Of a stretch of 47,910 nt of DNA, positions 279-31,930 are shown one piece after another (positions within the stretch are counted from its first letter, which is position 1; every line of letters starts with the position of its first letter). The stretch is from Anaerolineaceae bacterium. GTDB lineage: Bacteria; Chloroflexota; Anaerolineae; Anaerolineales; Anaerolineaceae. The notes under the pieces were generated by a model. The model was given only the letters and a program-made list of their open reading frames with translations. It made no database searches and had not been told where the DNA came from. The position numbers and the translations under genes are program-made. The stretch lies in assembly GCA_017417055.1 (NCBI GenBank), contig JAFPZX010000032.1:1-47910 (forward strand). The letters are read 5' to 3'.

Positions 279-2351
279 ATGAAAAGAAGAATTGTTTTAT
301 TCTGGTTTTTATTATCGATATTTTTAGTTATGCCAAATCAAATTCGATCTGTCAATGCGGTTAGCATAATGGGTAACGGAACCGGGGGAGTATATATAAA
401 TATTGATAACTCTGTAAACTCCCATTACAGGTCACGAAACATAGTTGCGTATGGTCCATCAAGCTGCACATGGTTTGTTGTGTCCCGAACTGAGGAATTG
501 ACGAATATTAATATAAATACGGTTTGGGGACCAACCAGAATGGCTTCGTATCATCCATTTAATGGAAATGGCTTTGTATATAGTAGCAATAAAGATGCTT
601 TACCAACTTCCGGAAAGGCTGTAGCCATCTATTCAAACCATGTAAGGATTATTGAAAAAGTTGAGGGTAACAATGTATTGATAAGTGAAGGCGGATCAAC
701 ATATTATTCCGATGCTAATCATGGTTATTGTGTGATCAGGTGGATGTCCAAAGACGATGTAAAAAATAAGGATGGTGGATTGTTGGGGTATATCTATTTC
801 CCGAATGCAACTTCTAATCAAGTCCCTGTTGGTCATATTGATAGATTTTATGGTTCTGAAAACCCGAATTATGGAGCTGCAAACGGGATGATCCATATGG
901 TAGGCTATGCTTTTGATTATGATGATACATCACAGGATTTGGAACTTCATGTATATGTTGGAGGTGCAGCCGGTTCCGGAGCAGGTCTATATCGGGTCAA
1001 ATGCAACCATGTTTTGAATGAAGGTGTGGTTAGCATGCATGGTGATGTTGGCGATCATCACGGTTGTGTGTTGGCAATTCCGGTTTCTGAAAGAGGTACC
1101 AAGGACGTTTATGTTTATGCAATTGATATCGGAGATACTTTTACTGAGAATCCAATGATTGGTCATGGGACTGTTACCATTACGGATGATGGCCATACAC
1201 CCAGAGGCGAAATTTATTCCGTAGAGAATAAGGATAATGGGACTATCCGCATACGGGGATGGGCATATGATCCGGATACACCTGGTGAAGGGATCAAACT
1301 GCATGTGTATGTCGGGGGAAAACCGGGAACGGGTGCAAGTCATTATGAAGTTCAGACAAGCACCCCGTCGAATGAATATAATTATGAGTTTGATTTTCTG
1401 ATTCCTGTTCAGGAAAGAGGTGAAAAGGACGTTTATGTCTATGCACTGGATAAAGGAAATCCTTTTACAACAAATCCGGTAATTGGATATGGTTGGGTCA
1501 ATATCACGAAAACAGCTAAATCTCCGAATGGATATATTGAGAAAATTGAAGGCTCGGATAACGGGACAATTTATATCCAGGGCTGGACATGGGATCCGGA
1601 TGATATTACGCAAGACCTTATGCTTCATGTTTATGTTGGCGGTGCAGCCGGGATCGGAGCAGGTCCATATCGCGTTCAATCCAACCATATCCGCTGCGAT
1701 CTGGCGATCCCCAAAGATATGTGTGATGCAGTAGTTGACAAACATGGAAATGTTGGCAATTATCATGGCTTTGATCTAAGAATACCGGTAAATGAAACAG
1801 GAACAAATGATGTCTATGTCTATGCAATTGATGTGGGAACACCTTCTAAAGATAATACAATGCTACGTCATGAAATTGTTAAGATTTCAGCTTATTATCC
1901 AAATTCAATTTCATTGAATAAAACACAGTTAAATTTACCCAGTGGAACATCGGAAACTTTGTCTGTCAATTATTTTCCATCTGGTGCTGAGATAAAAACA
2001 GCATGGTGGAGCAGCAGCAATACTGAAGTAGCAACGGTAACCAATGGTGTAGTAACTGCAAAAGGTCTTGGAACGGCAGTAATTACAGCAACTGCATATG
2101 GAAACAGTGATGCAACAGCGACTTGTACTGTTACTGTAACAGAGCCTGCCCCTGCTTGCAAAAAACCGGGAGATTTTACCGGAGATGGTGAGATTACCGG
2201 AAAAGATCTGATGCGTTTGCAGCGCTATCTGGTGGATAAAAATACGCCGATGTCCTGCTCAGGAGATGTAAATGGAGATGGTTCCGTTACCGGAAAAGAT
2301 TTGATGCGTTTGCAGCGCTATTTAGTGGATAAGACAACAATCCTTTATTAG
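279..2351 (+). CDS. Secreted CHAP-type murein hydrolase with repeat domains, BIG2-like domain and dockerin
   Basis: 690 aa. A signal peptide (about 1-27) is followed by a CHAP-like domain (about 40-160) with a candidate catalytic Cys63 in SSCTWFV, His121 in SNHVRIIE and Glu137 in ISEGG. CHAP enzymes are amidases or endopeptidases that cut peptidoglycan; that activity is inferred here. Three copies of a roughly 100-residue domain with the pattern GWxxDxD...LHVYVGG...DVYVYAID follow (about 183-300, 306-410 and 414-537), then a BIG2-like domain (about 543-622). The C-terminus is a type I dockerin with two calcium-loop repeats (632-643 and 663-674), each followed by the same LMRLQRYL helix. Cys627 and Cys660 precede the two repeats symmetrically. 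The start has a strong AGGAGG site at 271-276. The next two genes follow after short gaps of 56 and 76 bases, so the three are probably co-transcribed. The third encodes the likely cohesin partner. Confidence 0.85.
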   Translation: MKRRIVLFWFLLSIFLVMPNQIRSVNAVSIMGNGTGGVYINIDNSVNSHYRSRNIVAYGPSSCTWFVVSRTEELTNININTVWGPTRMASYHPFNGNGFVYSSNKDALPTSGKAVAIYSNHVRIIEKVEGNNVLISEGGSTYYSDANHGYCVIRWMSKDDVKNKDGGLLGYIYFPNATSNQVPVGHIDRFYGSENPNYGAANGMIHMVGYAFDYDDTSQDLELHVYVGGAAGSGAGLYRVKCNHVLNEGVVSMHGDVGDHHGCVLAIPVSERGTKDVYVYAIDIGDTFTENPMIGHGTVTITDDGHTPRGEIYSVENKDNGTIRIRGWAYDPDTPGEGIKLHVYVGGKPGTGASHYEVQTSTPSNEYNYEFDFLIPVQERGEKDVYVYALDKGNPFTTNPVIGYGWVNITKTAKSPNGYIEKIEGSDNGTIYIQGWTWDPDDITQDLMLHVYVGGAAGIGAGPYRVQSNHIRCDLAIPKDMCDAVVDKHGNVGNYHGFDLRIPVNETGTNDVYVYAIDVGTPSKDNTMLRHEIVKISAYYPNSISLNKTQLNLPSGTSETLSVNYFPSGAEIKTAWWSSSNTEVATVTNGVVTAKGLGTAVITATAYGNSDATATCTVTVTEPAPACKKPGDFTGDGEITGKDLMRLQRYLVDKNTPMSCSGDVNGDGSVTGKDLMRLQRYLVDKTTILY

Positions 2352-2407
2352 TTTTGTCGGTGTATAGCAATATCGGCTATTTTTAGAATCGAAGAAAGAG
2401 GATCAAC

Positions 2408-4414
2408 ATGGGGAAAAAATGGATTAAATCATTGCTTATTATTGTCTGTTTTTTAGGTATATGCAACTTTTCTTTTACAGAAGCTTTTGCTGATACCTGG
2501 GTTTGGCCGGTTCCTTCTGTGAGTATAGGCAGTAATATTTCTACTTATTTCAGCTCCAGTCATACAGGAATTGATATATATAGCAGTCTTGGTACGCCAA
2601 TTGTTGCGGCGAGATCGGGCACTGTCGAAAGGGCCTTTTCGGGTGATATACCGAATACATATTATGGAGGGGGAAATACTGTTGTAATTAAACACGGTCC
2701 AAACTTATTCAGTCACTATGCTCATTTGAATTCTTACATTGTATCAGCTGGGCAAAGTGTTACGGAAGGACAAGTCATTGGTTACATGGGAAGCACTGGA
2801 AATTCTACCGGGGTCCATCTTCACTTTGCAATAAAAAGTAATTCATATGGTGGTGATAATGGGGCAATAAATAATAACCCGGGATCTGTAACTTATGTGA
2901 ATGCAGGTTCATCTAATCAACTTCCGGTAGGTAGTATTGATTCAATTTATGGAACAAGTACAGGAACACTTCATATAAGTGGGTGGGCTTTTGATTGGGA
3001 TCGTGTGTCTGCAAATGATGTAGGACTTGATATTGCATTGAATCCAGGGGCAAGTAATGAAACCTGGATTCCCAGGGTTCATGCAAATGGAGTATATCGT
3101 CCTGATGTTGAAAATGCATATCCAGGAGCCGGAAATTATCATGGTTTTGATCTTGAATTTGATGTAACACAACGAGGTACTTTTGATTATAATGTTTTTG
3201 CGATTGGTGATAAACATGTTTCCGGATCCGGAGGATATTGGGATGCAACGAGGATTGGGGAGGGTACGATAACTATTTCTGCCGATTATGCAAATACAAT
3301 TTCATTGAATAAAACACAGTTAAATTTAGACAGTGGTAATTCAGAAACTTTATCTGTCAATTATTTCCCATCTGATACTGTGAATAAAAAGGTATGGTGG
3401 AGCAGCAGCAATACTGAAGTAGCGATGGTATCCAATGGTGTAATAACTGCAAAGGCTCCCGGGAAGGCAGTGATTACTGCAAATGCATATGGAAACGATA
3501 ATGCAACAGCGACTTGTACAGTCACTGTAACAGGTATTCCTGTGTCTTCTTTGAAATTTATTAACAATTTCATCGAAATTCCAATTGGATATGAGGTGGA
3601 TGGAACAATTTATACCGAAGAAGTTGATGTTCAAGCGAAAATTGATCCGAGTAATGCATCTACAAAAAAAGTTATATGGTTTCCCGAGTATGATAAATTA
3701 TATAAAGATGGAAATTGGTGGAGAAAACCCACAGCTGAACTTTTAAACGCAGATGGATGTCAAGAATTGTGGCAACCCGATGGTAATATATTTATATGTC
3801 CGGATGATAGCTACGTACTAAAAATACAAGGTGGAATTTATCCTAAGGCAAAAATAGGAGAAACAAAACAATTTAAAATTTCTACTTCGAAAGATTTCGA
3901 TGATTATTCAGATATATTAACCGTTAGGCTTGTTTCTGCTATAAAATCGATCGTCATAACCAATTCTTCTGATATAGATATTACGGAGCAAACGGTTTCT
4001 GTTGCCAGAGGTTCGTCTTTGCAATTGTCTGCTGCAGCGGAACCTTTTTATAATCCTCAAACTTTTACCTGGATGAGCAGTGATACATCAATAGCGACGG
4101 TAGATTCAACCGGAAATGTAACATATATCGGTCCCGGTACTGTAATAATTACCGCTACATCCACCGATGGCGGCGGTAAATACGAATGGGTGAAACTGAC
4201 TGAGGAACCCGTTTCAACTTGCAAAAAACCTGGCGATTTTACCGGAGATGGTGAGATTACCGGAAAAGATCTGATGCGGCTGCAGCGCTATTTAATTGAT
4301 AAGAGCACGCCTATGTCCTGCTCAGGTGATGTAACCGGAGATGGAGAAATAACAGGGAAGGACCTGATGCGTTTACAGCGTTATCTTGTTGATAAAACGA
4401 CAGTACTTCATTGA
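2408..4414 (+). CDS. Secreted M23 (LytM-type) metallopeptidase with BIG2-like domains and dockerin
   Basis: 668 aa with a signal peptide (about 1-28). The M23 domain (about 35-165) has the family zinc motif HTGID (His52, Asp56), HYAHL (His103, His106) and HLH (His137, His139), so it should be a catalytically intact murein endopeptidase. One domain related to the GWAFD repeats of the preceding protein follows (about 172-290). Next come a BIG2-like domain nearly identical in sequence to that of the neighbour (about 296-375), a less clear region (380-510), a second BIG2-like domain (about 512-595) and a type I dockerin (calcium loops 610-621 and 641-652). The dockerin matches the neighbour's almost residue for residue, implying that both bind the same cohesin. 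The domain order of catalytic N-terminus, Ig-like spacer and C-terminal dockerin mirrors cellulosomal enzymes, but with a peptidoglycan hydrolase as the catalytic unit. Confidence 0.88.
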   Translation: MGKKWIKSLLIIVCFLGICNFSFTEAFADTWVWPVPSVSIGSNISTYFSSSHTGIDIYSSLGTPIVAARSGTVERAFSGDIPNTYYGGGNTVVIKHGPNLFSHYAHLNSYIVSAGQSVTEGQVIGYMGSTGNSTGVHLHFAIKSNSYGGDNGAINNNPGSVTYVNAGSSNQLPVGSIDSIYGTSTGTLHISGWAFDWDRVSANDVGLDIALNPGASNETWIPRVHANGVYRPDVENAYPGAGNYHGFDLEFDVTQRGTFDYNVFAIGDKHVSGSGGYWDATRIGEGTITISADYANTISLNKTQLNLDSGNSETLSVNYFPSDTVNKKVWWSSSNTEVAMVSNGVITAKAPGKAVITANAYGNDNATATCTVTVTGIPVSSLKFINNFIEIPIGYEVDGTIYTEEVDVQAKIDPSNASTKKVIWFPEYDKLYKDGNWWRKPTAELLNADGCQELWQPDGNIFICPDDSYVLKIQGGIYPKAKIGETKQFKISTSKDFDDYSDILTVRLVSAIKSIVITNSSDIDITEQTVSVARGSSLQLSAAAEPFYNPQTFTWMSSDTSIATVDSTGNVTYIGPGTVIITATSTDGGGKYEWVKLTEEPVSTCKKPGDFTGDGEITGKDLMRLQRYLIDKSTPMSCSGDVTGDGEITGKDLMRLQRYLVDKTTVLH

Positions 4415-4490
4415 ATCAGATATTGAAAAATATTTTTTCAAACATATACCAGTTATTCTGGAATATAGATGAAAATACAAGAGGTGAAAA

Positions 4491-6794
4491 ATGAAAAGGA
4501 ATAAAATTATTTTGATGATTTGTTTTACGGTTTTGTTATGTTTTGCAGTATTTTCTGCTGAAGCACAAGACCAAACAAGTTCTATCGGGATTCAGATTTC
4601 AACCGCAGCTGCAAAAACGGGAGAAGACGTAACGCTTTCCGTGAGTCTTACTGAGAATCCGGGTGTATCATATTTGAGCCTGAAATTCACATATGATACG
4701 GCAAAGCTCTCCTTTGAAGGATTCGACGACGTTGTAGAGTCCGCGGAATTTTCCGGAAAATGGGAAAAGAACGCAGCCGAAGCGGCAGCGAACTGGAACA
4801 ACGGCCGGGCAAATTCGACATACACCGGCGAAGTCTTGAAATTGAAATTCAAGGCACTTGCTGAAGGTGAAGCAGAAGTGACTGCTGCCTTAGGCGATGC
4901 GGATGGGGCTTTGCAGTATGAAGAGGGTACCGATGGAAAAAATCTGACGCCTGAATTTACCCAAGGTAAAGTGACGATTACCGAACCTGTGACATCGGAA
5001 AAAATCGGGATTCAGATTTCAACCGCAACTGTAAAAACGGGAGAAGAAGTAACGATTTCCGTGAGTCTTACCGAGAATCCGGGTGTATCATATCTGAGCC
5101 TGAAATTCACATATGATACGGCAAAGCTCTCCTTTGAAGGATTCGACGACGTTGTAGAGTCCGCGGAATTTTCCGGAAAATGGGAAAAGAACGCAGCCGA
5201 AGCGGCAGCGAACTGGAACAATGGCCGGGCAAATTCGACATACACCGGCGAAGTCTTGAAATTGAAATTCAAGGCACTTGCCGAAGGTGAAGCAGAAGTG
5301 ACTGCTGCCTTAGGCGATGCGGATGGGGCTTTGCAGTATGAAGAGGGTACCGATGGAAAAAATCTGACGCCTGAATTTACCCAAGGTAAAGTGACGATAG
5401 TTCCACCTGTTTTGCCTGAAACTATAGTTTTGAACCCGAAGACCGCAAGTATTGGTGTCGGACAGGATTTGGCAGTTTCTGCAACGATTTTACCGGACAA
5501 TGCTGACGATCTGGGTATTATCTGGACATCATCTGATTCTTCCATAGCTACAGTGGCACAGAGTAAAGGTAAGTCTGTTGTGATGGGTGTTGTGACCGGT
5601 GTCTCCGAAGGTGTTGTGACGATCACAGCAAGATCAAGTGCAAATGAAGCACTACTCGATACCTGTGTTGTGACGGTAATACAATCACCTGTTGTGATTC
5701 CGACTTCCATTGTTCTTGATCCGGCTTCTGCAAGCATAAAGGTTGGGGAAGAAATATCAATTATAGCAATTGTTACTCCGGATGAAGCTGAAAATAAGAC
5801 TGTTACCTGGGTAAGCAATAATCCTTCTGTTGCCGTAGTAGATCAAAACGGAAATGTAACCGGTGTGGCTGAAGGTACAGTGACGATTACGGTTATTTCC
5901 AATGCGGATCCGACTGTCACTGCACAGATTATGGTGACTGTCACTGCGCAAGTTGGACCACAGCCGCCGGTACCTGTGCTGCCGACAAGCATCGTTTTAA
6001 ATCCTTCCGGCTCCGCTTCTGTTGAAAGCGGGAAGACGTTACATCTGACAGCCACTGTTTTGCCGGCGAATGCCGCGGACAAGTCGGTCCGGTGGCAAAG
6101 CAGTGATCCTACTGTTGCCACAGTGGATGCGAGTGGTCGCGTGACCGGTGTGAACAAAGGAACGGCAGCGATCATAGTTACTTCCAATGCTAATCCGGAT
6201 GTTTCTGCCCGCATCATTGTAAATGTAACTGAACCGGTCAATCCTCCGCAGCCACAGCCGCCTTTCTGGCATTTTGATATTATCGGGCAGCCGCTGCCGC
6301 GCACCGGGTTCACCTCACTTCGTCCGCAGGCACTGCCCGAAATGCCGCTGAACCTGAGCTATCAGCCGCTGCACCGGACGCTGGAGATCCCGTCCCTTTC
6401 CGTTGCTGCCGATATAGTGGAGATTCCGAATGAAAATGGCGAATACCCGATCACCTGGCTGGGTGATAAGGTTGGTTTGCTGGAAGGCTTCGCGCTGCCC
6501 GGTGAAGGGTACACGGTTCTGACCGGACACAATCACCTGAATACTACGGAAGCCGGTCCGTTTGCGTTACTTTCTTCCATGGAAGAGGGCGACCGCATCT
6601 TCGTTCGTGATTCTAAATACAATTTGAAGACTTATGTGGTCTATGCCAATGAAAAAGTCAGTGAAACCGATTACGAAGCGGTGGAGTCCATTGCCGTGAA
6701 ATATGAGGGTTCTCTTACCATGATCACCTGCGAGGACGAACGTATAGAAGGCGGGTACGCCAGCCGCCGTATCGTCGCTGCGCGGCCGTATTGA
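4491..6794 (+). CDS. Cohesin-bearing scaffold with LPRTG motif and fused C-terminal sortase domain
   Basis: 767 aa with a signal peptide (about 1-25). Two near-identical cohesin-like domains lie at about 32-164 and 172-303. Both open with IGIQIST and contain YLSLKFTYDTAKLSF and GEVLKLKFKAL, typical of the cohesin beta-sandwich. Three BIG2-like domains follow (about 308-398, 403-486 and 498-580), then a Pro-rich linker, the sorting-type motif LPRTG (602-606), and a sortase domain to the end. The sortase has His680 in LTGHNH, Cys747 in TMITC, and Arg759/Arg760 in ASRRIVAA, so its catalytic triad looks complete. No membrane segment follows the LPRTG, unlike a classical sorting signal. Both upstream neighbours end in dockerins, so this is probably their scaffold. 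Whether the sortase acts on its own LPRTG, on another protein, or on pili is unknown. Confidence 0.85.
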   Translation: MKRNKIILMICFTVLLCFAVFSAEAQDQTSSIGIQISTAAAKTGEDVTLSVSLTENPGVSYLSLKFTYDTAKLSFEGFDDVVESAEFSGKWEKNAAEAAANWNNGRANSTYTGEVLKLKFKALAEGEAEVTAALGDADGALQYEEGTDGKNLTPEFTQGKVTITEPVTSEKIGIQISTATVKTGEEVTISVSLTENPGVSYLSLKFTYDTAKLSFEGFDDVVESAEFSGKWEKNAAEAAANWNNGRANSTYTGEVLKLKFKALAEGEAEVTAALGDADGALQYEEGTDGKNLTPEFTQGKVTIVPPVLPETIVLNPKTASIGVGQDLAVSATILPDNADDLGIIWTSSDSSIATVAQSKGKSVVMGVVTGVSEGVVTITARSSANEALLDTCVVTVIQSPVVIPTSIVLDPASASIKVGEEISIIAIVTPDEAENKTVTWVSNNPSVAVVDQNGNVTGVAEGTVTITVISNADPTVTAQIMVTVTAQVGPQPPVPVLPTSIVLNPSGSASVESGKTLHLTATVLPANAADKSVRWQSSDPTVATVDASGRVTGVNKGTAAIIVTSNANPDVSARIIVNVTEPVNPPQPQPPFWHFDIIGQPLPRTGFTSLRPQALPEMPLNLSYQPLHRTLEIPSLSVAADIVEIPNENGEYPITWLGDKVGLLEGFALPGEGYTVLTGHNHLNTTEAGPFALLSSMEEGDRIFVRDSKYNLKTYVVYANEKVSETDYEAVESIAVKYEGSLTMITCEDERIEGGYASRRIVAARPY
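4584..5399 (+). repeat. Near-identical tandem duplication encoding the two cohesin domains
   Basis: Units 4584-4979 and 5004-5399 (396 bp each, 420-bp period) differ at only a handful of positions, most of them near the start of the unit. The stretch from the AAATTCAC motif onward is almost perfectly identical. This is recent duplication or gene conversion within the scaffold gene. It is also a potential assembly-collapse site. Confidence 0.95.
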
Positions 6795-6868
6795 TCATTG
6801 ATCCGAATTGGAATCACACGCATTTTTCCCTGAATGTGTGTGTTCAGGATGCCATGTAAATTATGAAC

Positions 6869-6910
6869 ATGAGCTGCCGTATTTGCGGCAGCTCATGCTT
6901 TGTACGTTAT
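6869..6910 (+). terminator. Hairpin after the scaffold-sortase gene
   Basis: ATGAGCTGCCG (6869-6879) pairs perfectly with CGGCAGCTCAT (6886-6896) across a 6-base loop. The following T content is modest. It lies 75 bases after the stop codon and probably ends the dockerin/cohesin operon. Confidence 0.55.
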
Positions 6911-28457: not shown

Positions 28458-28597
28458 TGCGCACAGTATAGATGACGATTGAGCAATAGGGATAATATTA
28501 ATTTTTTTCATGGCCGTTGTTGTGGAAATGTGATGAAAAAAGGAGAAGTTTTCATCATTGTTTCCTTAGATCTCCATGGAGAGAGGATGTTCAGTTT

Positions 28598-31500
28598 ATG
28601 AATAGTTCCATGAAGGAGAAAGAGAAAAATTTAACAGGCTATCTGTCGCCCCTTGGCGCATGGGCGCTGTCTTTTGGCTGCGCAGTAGGTTGGGGTGCCT
28701 TTATGATGCCCGGTACTACATTTTTACCGATCGCCGGACCGGTGGGTACGGTTATCGGTATCACTGTGGGCGGGTTGATTATGCTCATTATCGCGGTCAA
28801 TTGTCATTATCTGATGAACCGTTATCCGGATGCCGGCGGCATTTTTACCTATACCAAAAATCTTTATGGCTATGATAATGGGTTCCTGAGCGCCTGGTTC
28901 CTGCTGCTCACGTATATCGCGATCATGTGGGCTAATGCTACTGCGCTGCCGCTGATAGCCCGCAATCTGTTCGGCGGCTTGCTGCAGTTTGGCTTTCATT
29001 ATGAAATTGCCGGTTATCAGGTTTATGGCGGTGAGGTGCTGCTGGCTCTCTGTGCACTGGGTGTGTCTGCGCTGTTATGCCTGCACAAAAAAGCTGCCGA
29101 AAAAGTACAGATACTCATGGCGCTGTTTTTAATAATCGGTGTCACGATCGGAATTTTTTCCGCTGTCTTAAATCCGAATGTGAGTCGTGACATTCTAAAA
29201 CCCAATTTTCCGCCCGGTGTAAAACCTTTTGAAGGTATCTTTACGATCATTGCGCTTGCCCCGTGGGCCTATGTCGGTTTTGAATCGATCAGCCATTCCT
29301 CTTCGGAATTCAGTTTTTCAAGCAAAAAATCCCTGATGATCATGGTTGTTGCCGTTATCGCGGCAGCTTTTGCTTATAGTGCGCTGGCTGTGCTGGCTGT
29401 GGCTGTTTTGCCGGAAGGTATTTCTTCCTGGCCGGAGTATATCGGCAATCTTGGCAGTTACAGCGGACTTGAGGGACTGCCCACCTTCTTTTCCGCGACT
29501 TCGCTGATGGGGACGATGGGTACAATTGTTTTGGCTGTCACCACGTTCGGCGCAATCGTTACCGGTCTGGTTGGGAATTATATCGCTTCCAGTCGTTTGA
29601 TTTTTGCCCTGGCTGAAGATCAAATGATGCCGGAGCGCTTTGCGGAACTCGATAAAAACCATACGCCGAAAAATGCCATTATCTTTCTTTTATGTATTTC
29701 TGTCATTATTCCTTTCCTGGGCAGGTCGGCAATCGGTTGGATCGTGGATGTAGCCACTGTCGGTGCGACGATTGCTTATGCTTACCTTTCCGCCTGTGCG
29801 TTTAAAGATTCGAAAGGGAAAAGCAAGATCATCCGTGTAAGCGGAATGGTGGGGTTTGTTGTTTCAATTTTATTTGTTCTGTATTTCCTGGTCCCGAGTT
29901 TGCTCGCGGTGGATACGCTTTCCATGGAATCCTACCTGATCCTTTCCGCATGGGGAATTTTCGGACTGATGTACTTCCTTCACCTGTTCAGACGGGACAA
30001 AAAGCGGCGTTTTGGACGGACTCCGATGTCCTGGATCATCCTGGTGATGCTCATTATCTTTTCGGCTTCTGTATGGATGCGGCAGTCTTCGGAATCTGTT
30101 GCGAAACAGGCACTGAGCCTGTCCCAGACCACTGTTACCGGAGAATTTTCCGGTAATGATACAATGAGCCATTTAGATGCGTTAATTCAGAGCGGACACG
30201 CCGGGGTTTTGAAAAAAATCAGTAATTCCCTGCTGTCCAGCAGTCTGGTTTTGTTTGGAATGATTTCTGCCGCGCTGGCGCTTTTGTTTTTGATCTTTTC
30301 CGTCATGCTCAAACGCGAGAAACAGATCGAGGCGGAAAAAGTTCTGGCTGAAGAAAGCAGCCGTGCCAAAACCAGCTTCCTTTCCAACATGAGCCATGAA
30401 ATCCGGACACCGATGAACGCGATCATCGGTCTGGATAATATTGCACTGAAAGATCCCAATCTGCCTCCGAACACCCGGGAGCAGTTGGAAAAAATCGGAG
30501 CCAGCGCCAAACATCTGCTCGGACTGATCAATGATATTCTTGACATGAGCCGCATTGAATCGGGCCGTATGGTACTGAAGGAAGAAGAATTCCCCTTCCG
30601 GGATTTTCTTGACCAAATCAATGTGATCATTAACGGGCAGTGCGATGACAAAGGGCTGTTTTATGAATGCCGCATTATCGGTCAGATGAATGATTATTAT
30701 ATCGGTGACGCGATGAAACTCAAGCAGGTGCTCATCAATATCCTGGGCAATGCGGTTAAATTTACCAATGAAGGCGGAAACGTTACCTTCACTGTTGAGC
30801 AAATCGCATCGTTTGAAGGACACTGCACGCTTCGCTTCACCATAACGGACAGCGGCATTGGGATGAGCAAAGAGTATATTCCGAAGATTTTTGAAGCCTT
30901 TTCTCAGGAAGAGAGCCAGACTGCCAATAAATACGGCAGCACCGGTTTGGGAATGGCGATCACGAAAAATCTGGTTCAGATGATGAACGGTGATATCGAT
31001 GTGGAGAGCGAAAAAGGCGTTGGAACGACTTTTATTGTCACGGTTACGCTGAAGTCATCCAGCCGCAGTATCTCTCATGAGTATTCTGTGAGCCTGCCGA
31101 AGGATCTGCGCGTTTTGCTTGTTGATGATGATGACGTGGCCTGTGACCATGCTCTTCTGGTGGCGAATGCCATTGGTGTTAATGCCGATAAGTCACTTTC
31201 CGGTGAGGATGCGCTGGGTCGTATTATCAAAAAACGGGAAGAGGGAAATCCTTATCAGATCGTTCTGACGGATTACAAGATGCCGGGTATGGATGGAATC
31301 GCATTCACCAGAGCGCTGCGTGCGTTTGATAACGGTGAAACCGGTGTGATCATCATGACCGGATACAGCTGGGATGACATGATCGATGATGCCAAAGCAG
31401 CCGGTGCGGATGGTTTTATTTCAAAACCGCTTTTTACCAACAGCCTTGTCGGTGAGCTGCATGCAGTGCTGCTCAAGCGGGATGAACTGTCGGAGGCGGA

Positions 31501-31930
31501 ACAAACAGAAACTGATGTGGAAGAGGAAAAAGCAGGTGTCAGTATTGAAGGCTTACATGTGCTGATCGCTGAGGATATGGATATCAACGCGGAAATCCTG
31601 ACAGATCTGTTGGAGCTGGAAGGGATCACTGCCGATCGTGCGGAAAATGGTCAGATCGCTGTGGAGATGTTCTCAAATCATCCGGAAAACAGTTATGATG
31701 CGATCTTGATGGATGTTCGTATGCCGGTGATGGACGGACTGGAAGCTACCAGGGCAATCCGTGCACTGGACCGCCCGGATGCCCATACGATCCCGATCAT
31801 CGCGATGACCGCCAACGCTTTTGACGACGATGTCCAGCGTTCTCTGCAGGCCGGTATGACCGCCCACCTTTCCAAACCGGTCGAGCCTGAACGCCTCTAT
31901 GAAACGCTCGGCAGGCTGATCAAGCGATAA
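28598..31930 (+). CDS. Amino-acid-permease-like transporter fused to hybrid histidine kinase with two receivers
   Basis: 1110 aa from ATG 28598 behind GAGAGGA; the frame is open from 28517. The first part (about 10-465) is an APC-superfamily amino-acid-permease-like domain of about twelve helices (for example GWGAFMMPGTTFLP near the start). A further helix (about 477-493), a short external loop and another helix (about 547-572) lead into the kinase. HisKA has His600 (SNMSHEIRTPMNAI), HATPase has NAVKFTN and DSGIGMS, then come receivers REC1 (Asp892, LTDYKMPGMDG) and REC2 (Asp1039, LMDVRMPVMDG). The domain order suggests that a solute-transport module serves as the sensor, as for the SLC5-type kinase CbrA, but here with an APC fold. 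No Hpt domain is included. Confidence 0.92.
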   Translation: MNSSMKEKEKNLTGYLSPLGAWALSFGCAVGWGAFMMPGTTFLPIAGPVGTVIGITVGGLIMLIIAVNCHYLMNRYPDAGGIFTYTKNLYGYDNGFLSAWFLLLTYIAIMWANATALPLIARNLFGGLLQFGFHYEIAGYQVYGGEVLLALCALGVSALLCLHKKAAEKVQILMALFLIIGVTIGIFSAVLNPNVSRDILKPNFPPGVKPFEGIFTIIALAPWAYVGFESISHSSSEFSFSSKKSLMIMVVAVIAAAFAYSALAVLAVAVLPEGISSWPEYIGNLGSYSGLEGLPTFFSATSLMGTMGTIVLAVTTFGAIVTGLVGNYIASSRLIFALAEDQMMPERFAELDKNHTPKNAIIFLLCISVIIPFLGRSAIGWIVDVATVGATIAYAYLSACAFKDSKGKSKIIRVSGMVGFVVSILFVLYFLVPSLLAVDTLSMESYLILSAWGIFGLMYFLHLFRRDKKRRFGRTPMSWIILVMLIIFSASVWMRQSSESVAKQALSLSQTTVTGEFSGNDTMSHLDALIQSGHAGVLKKISNSLLSSSLVLFGMISAALALLFLIFSVMLKREKQIEAEKVLAEESSRAKTSFLSNMSHEIRTPMNAIIGLDNIALKDPNLPPNTREQLEKIGASAKHLLGLINDILDMSRIESGRMVLKEEEFPFRDFLDQINVIINGQCDDKGLFYECRIIGQMNDYYIGDAMKLKQVLINILGNAVKFTNEGGNVTFTVEQIASFEGHCTLRFTITDSGIGMSKEYIPKIFEAFSQEESQTANKYGSTGLGMAITKNLVQMMNGDIDVESEKGVGTTFIVTVTLKSSSRSISHEYSVSLPKDLRVLLVDDDDVACDHALLVANAIGVNADKSLSGEDALGRIIKKREEGNPYQIVLTDYKMPGMDGIAFTRALRAFDNGETGVIIMTGYSWDDMIDDAKAAGADGFISKPLFTNSLVGELHAVLLKRDELSEAEQTETDVEEEKAGVSIEGLHVLIAEDMDINAEILTDLLELEGITADRAENGQIAVEMFSNHPENSYDAILMDVRMPVMDGLEATRAIRALDRPDAHTIPIIAMTANAFDDDVQRSLQAGMTAHLSKPVEPERLYETLGRLIKR

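Follow-up and report, generated by a model that had tools for sequence, protein, structure and literature searches.

A cohesin–dockerin gene trio with a sortase-fused scaffold and putative wall hydrolases in an Anaerolineaceae bacterium

Three adjacent genes from an Anaerolineaceae bacterium probably encode a small surface complex of peptidoglycan hydrolases that is particular to this locus, a two-enzyme mini-'lyticome', and it is quite likely that these hydrolases are tethered by the scaffold that the third gene specifies. The whole stretch analysed, here called the window, is 47,910 nucleotides long and is contig C125 of a 4.4-Mb assembly that is 85% complete. Two of the genes end in type I dockerins and the third bears two cohesins, Big_2 spacers, an LPRTG motif and a sortase domain, as a first-pass annotation of the same DNA had read them; the positions and order of the genes and the profile scores given below agree with that reading. 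The locus appears to be a variant of the cohesin–dockerin kind and, on the evidence seen, not a cellulosome: its assembly is likely, whilst its function is what we infer from the domains. The use that we prefer for the complex, tentatively, is an outward one, against the peptidoglycan of other cells or of nearby cell debris.

Gene layout and the two hydrolase genes

The three open reading frames lie on the forward strand at 279-2351 (ORF1, 690 aa), 2408-4414 (ORF2, 668 aa) and 4491-6794 (ORF3, 767 aa). The gaps between them are 56 and 76 bases, and each frame follows a purine-rich ribosome-binding stretch. All three proteins begin with a signal-peptide-like hydrophobic segment in a hydropathy scan, on which basis ORF1 and ORF2 would be secreted; the one further hydrophobic segment in the trio is at residues 391-409 of ORF3, at the junction between two Big_2 domains. 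Because the contig ends at the first base of the window and bases 1-278 contain no ORF as long as 80 aa, there may be an additional partner gene upstream of ORF1.

Downstream of ORF3, a hairpin whose 12-bp stem is perfect (6868-6897, forward strand) is a possible terminator and is absent from the list returned by the terminator scan. Between ORF1 and ORF2 there is a weak stem followed by TATTTTTAGA (2356-2377), possibly an attenuator that would give unequal expression of the two genes; in the terminator scan, sites of this sort were about equally frequent in shuffled sequence. Elsewhere in the window, at 28517-31930, a 1137-aa fusion of an amino-acid permease, a histidine kinase and two receiver domains lies near further two-component and GGDEF/EAL genes.

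Behind its signal peptide, ORF2 comprises a Peptidase_M23 domain (2558-2842), one copy of an accessory repeat, two Big_2 domains (Pfam 88.9 bits over two stretches) and a type I dockerin (Dockerin_1 40.4 bits, cut-off 22.9). Both profile score (93.6 bits, cut-off 28.7) and motifs place it in the M23 family, with HTGID, YAHLN and HLHF forming what we take to be the zinc-ligand and catalytic motifs. A search against PHROG matched it to phage M23 endolysins and peptidases as well as to Ig-domain phage families. The matches of ORF1 were to Ig-domain phage families only. This protein carries, after the signal peptide, a CHAP-like region (residues 61-138; 459-692), three accessory repeats, Big_2 (35.2 bits) and a type I dockerin (43.7 bits, cut-off 22.9).

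The first-pass annotation had described the catalytic parts as M23- and CHAP-type. The M23 assignment stands, whereas the CHAP assignment is weak: Pfam gives 22.3 bits (E 1.9e-4), below the cut-off of 26, and a frame scan gives 25.7 bits for the region alone and 26.2 bits with its neighbours against the same cut-off. A Cys/His/Glu-like set can be read in GPSSCTW, SNHVRI and LISEGG, which presumably corresponds to the catalytic set of a CHAP enzyme. Structure prediction of the region gave a model too poor to use (pLDDT 38.3). When the CHAP-like domains of ORF1 and of the paralogous locus C80 were aligned by hhalign with the CHAPs of family members, the probability was 1.5%, barely more than the 0.1-1.0% of four unrelated control domains. 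A phmmer search with the region against solved structures found no CHAP protein in 18 matches at E <= 1, these being designed SAKe proteins, antibody chains, a baseplate protein and an ectoine synthase. Read from its sequence, the region is probably a CHAP domain. Among 147 genomes of the family it has a match in its own genome alone, so the exact trio is known from one genome.

The accessory repeat, of about 108-128 aa with the pattern GxI...GWAFD...HVYVGG...VYAIDxG, was defined by alignment and has no Pfam match at E <= 1. It occurs three times in ORF1 (819-1901), once in ORF2 (2918-3292) and once more in C80. It thus lies beside both catalytic domains, and is a candidate binding domain.

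Dockerins, cohesins and their relatives

The dockerins of ORF1 (2166-2324) and ORF2 (4229-4387) are 89% identical and share 151 of 189 bases in DNA. Both belong to the type I family (PF00404), both calcium loops are visible in each with a genus profile (A2), and Gly-Lys stands at the recognition position in both repeats of each. ORF3 consists of a signal peptide, two cohesins, three Big_2 domains, LPRTG and the sortase domain. Its two cohesins (4590-4979 and 5010-5399) score as such (PF00963; 49.8 bits over two stretches, cut-off 24.1) and also have the cohesin fold, which bears out what had been supposed of these repeats. They are 94% identical in protein, and since 388 of 405 bases are identical in DNA, a recent duplication is likely. 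The Big_2 spacer region follows in three stretches, with approximate limits of 5406-6230 (159 bits). In a plasmid search ORF3 matched 364 records, and the best 8 of the 364 are all confined to its Ig-like part, residues 255-582; neither these matches nor those to PHROG bear on assembly. The scaffold would extend outward on these Big_2 arms, and fold, family, adjacency and the 2:2 matching suggest that the near-identical, symmetric dockerins of ORF1 and ORF2 would dock on its two near-identical cohesins.

The solved structures nearest to the window's dockerins and cohesins are mostly cellulosomal, and the RUG in the name of a sister MAG presumably denotes a rumen genome; both would suit a reduced cellulosome for plant fibre. 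As the first-pass annotation had it for the window, however, the dockerin proteins are without glycoside hydrolases: Pfam finds neither these nor carbohydrate-binding modules in the genome's four dockerin proteins, and such a reduced cellulosome is very improbable. A plain cellulosome was rejected, no such domain being found by Pfam in the four dockerin proteins of this 85% complete genome or in the cohesin proteins scanned.

All four dockerins and six cohesins that Pfam detects in the genome sit within three compact loci of two or three genes (the window, C80 and C89), so the trio is not a chance arrangement. At C80, a protein with M23, CHAP-like, Big_2, cohesin and dockerin domains is followed by a protein with a cohesin and YDG repeats; at C89, a BspA-LRR, cohesin and dockerin protein is followed by one with a cohesin, DUF285/LRR and Big_2. 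Carrying M23 and CHAP-like domains in one chain, C80 unites what the window splits over two dockerin proteins, and so provides a natural fusion linking the ORF1 and ORF2 partners. The CHAP-like domain of C80 shares 32% identity with its counterpart in ORF1 and lacks the aligned Cys, whilst the M23 motifs are kept (L019:5433-5906); the former is possibly a wall-binding pseudo-enzyme. The cohesin of the C80 scaffold reached 33.2 bits in the genome scan, yet is absent from protein-level Pfam at E 0.01.

Two other genomes of the genus each contribute a locus. G005 has an M23-cohesin-dockerin protein and then a cohesin protein; G006 has a 355-aa cohesin-LPGTG-sortase protein and then a 1455-aa protein with dockerin, Big_2, LRR and caspase-like domains. 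The G006 cohesin, which scores 17.9 bits in protein-level Pfam against a cut-off of 24.1 and is not detected by the PF00963 genome scan, was recovered by a nine-row profile (A1) that has G006 among its rows and is therefore not independent. In all five loci read in the genus the number of scaffold cohesins equals the number of dockerin proteins, at two of each in the window and one of each in C80, C89, G005 and G006. Three of the dockerin proteins (C80, C89 and G005) also bear a cohesin of their own.

At what we take to be the recognition position of the dockerin loops, each locus has its own residues: Gly-Lys throughout the four repeats of the window, Ile-Phe in C80, Ala-Leu in C89, Val-Lys in G005, and Glu-Gln and Ala-Gln in G006. 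The two repeats are symmetric in four of the five loci. The role of this position, and the association of symmetric repeats with dual binding modes in known dockerins, are drawn in part from passages of PMC5301203. A mirror test that compared scaffold cohesins with dockerins in the five loci gave an r of 0.46, which 16 of 120 permutations reach or exceed and which is not significant; with the dockerin proteins' own cohesins used where present, r was 0.36 (19 of 120, again not significant).

Dockerins are found in three of the 14 genus genomes, by PF00404 alone and by profile A2 alike, the latter having been built with the six genus dockerins that it recovers. Among the 147 family genomes A2 adds one, G017, which is marginal (E 8.9e-4) and was not counted; over the order it matches 13 of 400 sampled genomes, weakly outside the genus (best E 7.1e-8). 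A stretch of 40 residues resembling a cohesin, matched by A1 near a transposase-like ORF in G013 (L092:1501-1620) and likewise not counted, is probably a remnant, and suggests that a sister species has lost a locus of this kind.

The two kinds of module go together. In 81 genomes scanned with Pfam, 14 have a cohesin and 12 a dockerin, and 10 have both, against 2.1 expected if kinship is ignored. A cohesin lies within 3 kb of 17 of the 22 dockerins, counting that of G006, whose cohesin came from profile A1; the contigs of the remaining five hold no cohesin. Co-occurrence in relatives therefore holds for the cohesin–dockerin pair but not for the exact trio. Assembly on a scaffold is the natural reading, since the domains are genuine, they are adjacent across relatives, and the M23/CHAP-like pairing recurs in C80.

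The proteins that bear the dockerins vary. M23 is present in four of the seven cohesin–dockerin loci whose dockerin proteins were scanned with Pfam, namely the window, C80, G005 and G059, and not in C89, G006 or G052. The last of these and G059 belong to other families of the order: G059 has an M23-cohesin-dockerin protein (L087:3300-5642) near a cohesin-dockerin protein, and G052 has a subtilase-dockerin protein beside a cohesin gene. The genus does not reserve this toolkit for murein, as dockerins there are also borne by proteins with BspA-type LRR or a caspase-like peptidase. The pairs could form a general display or adhesion kit by which large secreted proteins of any kind are joined in a network at the surface, with hydrolysis incidental or directed at host or feed proteins. 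M23 and CHAP enzymes may cut non-murein substrates too, and the BspA LRR, YDG, Big_2 and caspase-like cargo of other loci, together with the subtilase of G052, would fit such a kit; but the recurrence of M23 in four of seven loci and the zinc-ligand motifs kept in ORF2 argue otherwise, and a general kit does not seem likely to us.

A complex of wall hydrolases remains the preferred reading, in which the docked enzymes would cut peptidoglycan at the cell surface. The first-pass annotation had proposed a wall-remodelling complex, of which the complex survives as just described and the remodelling becomes one possibility, an alternative use on the local wall. On that account the M23 and CHAP-like hydrolases would be set on the cell's own wall, in septum splitting or growth. 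A wall-anchored scaffold would hold them there, and four PBP transpeptidase matches in the genome make it probable that the organism has peptidoglycan. However, dockerins are patchy, being present in so few genomes of a genus in which all members need wall growth, which argues against a housekeeping role. The paired modules, moreover, are so nearly identical that they seem to stem from recent duplication, and this is not what one would usually see in a core division system. Own-wall remodelling is thus unlikely. The patchy presence and the Big_2 arms favour instead a foreign or dead-cell target, and Chloroflexi of activated sludge are reported to live on debris from lysed cells and on N-acetylglucosamine (passages of PMC6753630).

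The LPRTG-sortase cassette

The scaffold ends in an LPRTG sorting motif (6294-6308), a linker and a fused C-terminal sortase domain (6381-6788). It is not a classical LPXTG wall anchor, because the motif precedes a sortase domain and the hydropathy scan places no hydrophobic segment, and thus no trans-membrane tail, after it. The domain belongs to the sortase family, with 62.8 bits in protein Pfam (cut-off 26.6) and 67 bits in the genome scan, and has the His (TGHNH), Cys (ITCED) and Arg (SRRIV) expected of it; phmmer against solved structures gave one sortase match, 2kw8 (E 0.0013). Family and catalytic residues are shared with the class F and class E sortases (NCBIfam NF033748 and NF033747), but the scores of ORF3 are far below the cut-offs for these classes (36.2 bits against 166 and 22.6 against 160, respectively), and the ORF3 domain differs in being fused behind an LPxTG motif on the same chain.

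The genome has 26 sortase-domain matches, of which that of the window and 20 others were read and five were left out. An LPxTG-type motif is present in 17 of the 20, where motif and sortase together form the end of the protein; the motif is LPxTG in 15, as in the window, and TPKTG and IPDTG once each, and lies 26 to 34 residues (mostly 29) before the sortase domain. The cassettes of this genome are at G000 loci L021-L038, with that of the window at 6294-6791. One other carrier has a calcineurin-like phosphoesterase by Pfam. The three proteins without the motif are at C63, at C101 and at the second match on C69. Those at C63 (a frame of 313 residues that includes a membrane-like segment) and C101 (a lipoprotein-like frame of 192 residues) are stand-alone sortase genes.

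All 19 aligned cassettes, comprising the 17 of the genome, that of the window and that of G006, keep the motif's P, T and G and the catalytic His, Cys and Arg without exception. Upstream of the motif, only four of the 153 pairs among the 18 own-genome carriers are similar at E 1e-5. Since motif and catalytic residues are kept on carriers so dissimilar upstream, the cassette seems to be under selection for its own activity. A profile of the cassette matches all 14 genus genomes and 93 of the 147 in the family, at 21 to at least 24 matches per genome in five genus genomes; among the matches listed, all but three begin at model position 1 or 2, which is the position of the motif in profile coordinates.

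That the scaffold is anchored by a sortase of its own, as had been claimed, is made plausible by the LPRTG motif and by the His, Cys and Arg of the fused domain. The sortase as a special feature of ORF3 was rejected, because the same cassette is found on 17 other proteins of the genome and throughout the genus. The cassette thus appears to be an ordinary feature of the genus, and one that is undescribed in the literature searched. It is absent from the scaffolds of C80, C89 and G005. Those of C80 and G005 (L019:8708-13018 and L084:9291-15686) share a Cys-containing tail, EIGAY...FHTYDICM...GYERCFHKE, with no sortase; this tail is possibly an alternative anchor.

The simplest mechanism would be that the cassette cleaves itself and transfers the protein to which it is attached. 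In ORF3, as motif and catalytic residues suggest, the sortase domain would cleave between the T and G of LPRTG in its own or a neighbour's chain and pass the scaffold to the wall, so standing in for the usual trans-membrane tail. Alternatively, a stand-alone sortase could anchor ORF3 in trans, the fused domain being a leftover or a structural cap. The genes at C63 and C101 could supply such an enzyme, but the conservation of all 19 cassettes on mostly dissimilar carriers would not be expected of a leftover, and anchoring in trans is rather doubtful.

Relation to known systems and significance

A partial precedent exists in Ruminococcus flavefaciens, where, by unpublished results mentioned in PMC3573020, a dockerin-borne putative NlpC/P60 cysteine peptidase (RflaF_05439) interacts with ScaE. 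Passages of PMC5301203 report a peptidase-dockerin, probably of that same protein, whose binding to ScaE in ELISA is some ten-fold weaker than that of the best binder. The ScaE system as presented in passages of PMC3573020 and the window are alike in having a dockerin-borne peptidase and a sortase-anchored cohesin, the pairing in the window being predicted from sequence; the residues at the postulated recognition sites are Gly-Arg in the R. flavefaciens peptidase-dockerin (PMC5301203, in part) and Gly-Lys in the window. The R. flavefaciens peptidase, however, is given in these passages as one among more than 220 proteins with dockerins, in a system that degrades fibre and has LPXTG and a sortase enzyme, whereas the window has two hydrolases, one scaffold, a fused sortase and no glycoside hydrolase seen.

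The term 'lyticome', met in PMC6403190 alone among the literature searched, was proposed there, by analogy with the cellulosome, for an extracellular multi-enzyme complex for bacterial lysis, a concept that the window resembles as a candidate. The same source credits dockerin-containing wall hydrolases to Morais 2016 and Bensoussan 2017. Its section on the lyticome names no gene set; the window provides a concrete candidate from Chloroflexota. The mucinolysome of Limousia (PMC12997984, in passages) is a cohesin–dockerin complex that acts on something other than cellulose and has a scaffoldin with LPxTG, as is predicted for the trio. Its cargo, however, is for mucin, the main text using neither 'M23' nor 'CHAP', and its scaffoldin has an LPxTG anchoring domain for which these passages report no sortase fusion, whereas the sortase of the window is fused.

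The earlier statement that no characterised system has this combination must thus be narrowed, since the concept is in print in the lyticome and in the ScaE binder. Among the matches listed in searches of titles and abstracts, no Chloroflexota cohesin–dockerin wall-hydrolase complex was found described, which is the part of the statement that holds, and no LPxTG-sortase self-fusion either. A survey of cellulosomes (PMC11557425) does not use the word Chloroflexi in the part of its text consulted; part of PMC5817068 served as a general source of comparison.

The fullest version of these proposals would be a true lyticome, dedicated to murein hydrolysis outside the cellulosome bacteria and displayed by a single-turnover self-sorting module in which the sortase takes the place of the membrane tail after LPxTG; this module would have spread, in several species of a single Chloroflexota genus, to about two dozen surface proteins in each genome. 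Such a version is conceivable, but we think it rather unlikely. The locus itself, with three genes compact enough to clone, is a candidate for the kind of multi-enzyme wall-lysis complex that previously existed only as a proposal, and it would be a case of Chloroflexota using cohesin–dockerin modules for something other than carbohydrate. The LPxTG-sortase cassette fits no curated sortase class tested and is a possible one-piece tool for protein display; in these bacteria, it may be a general display module.
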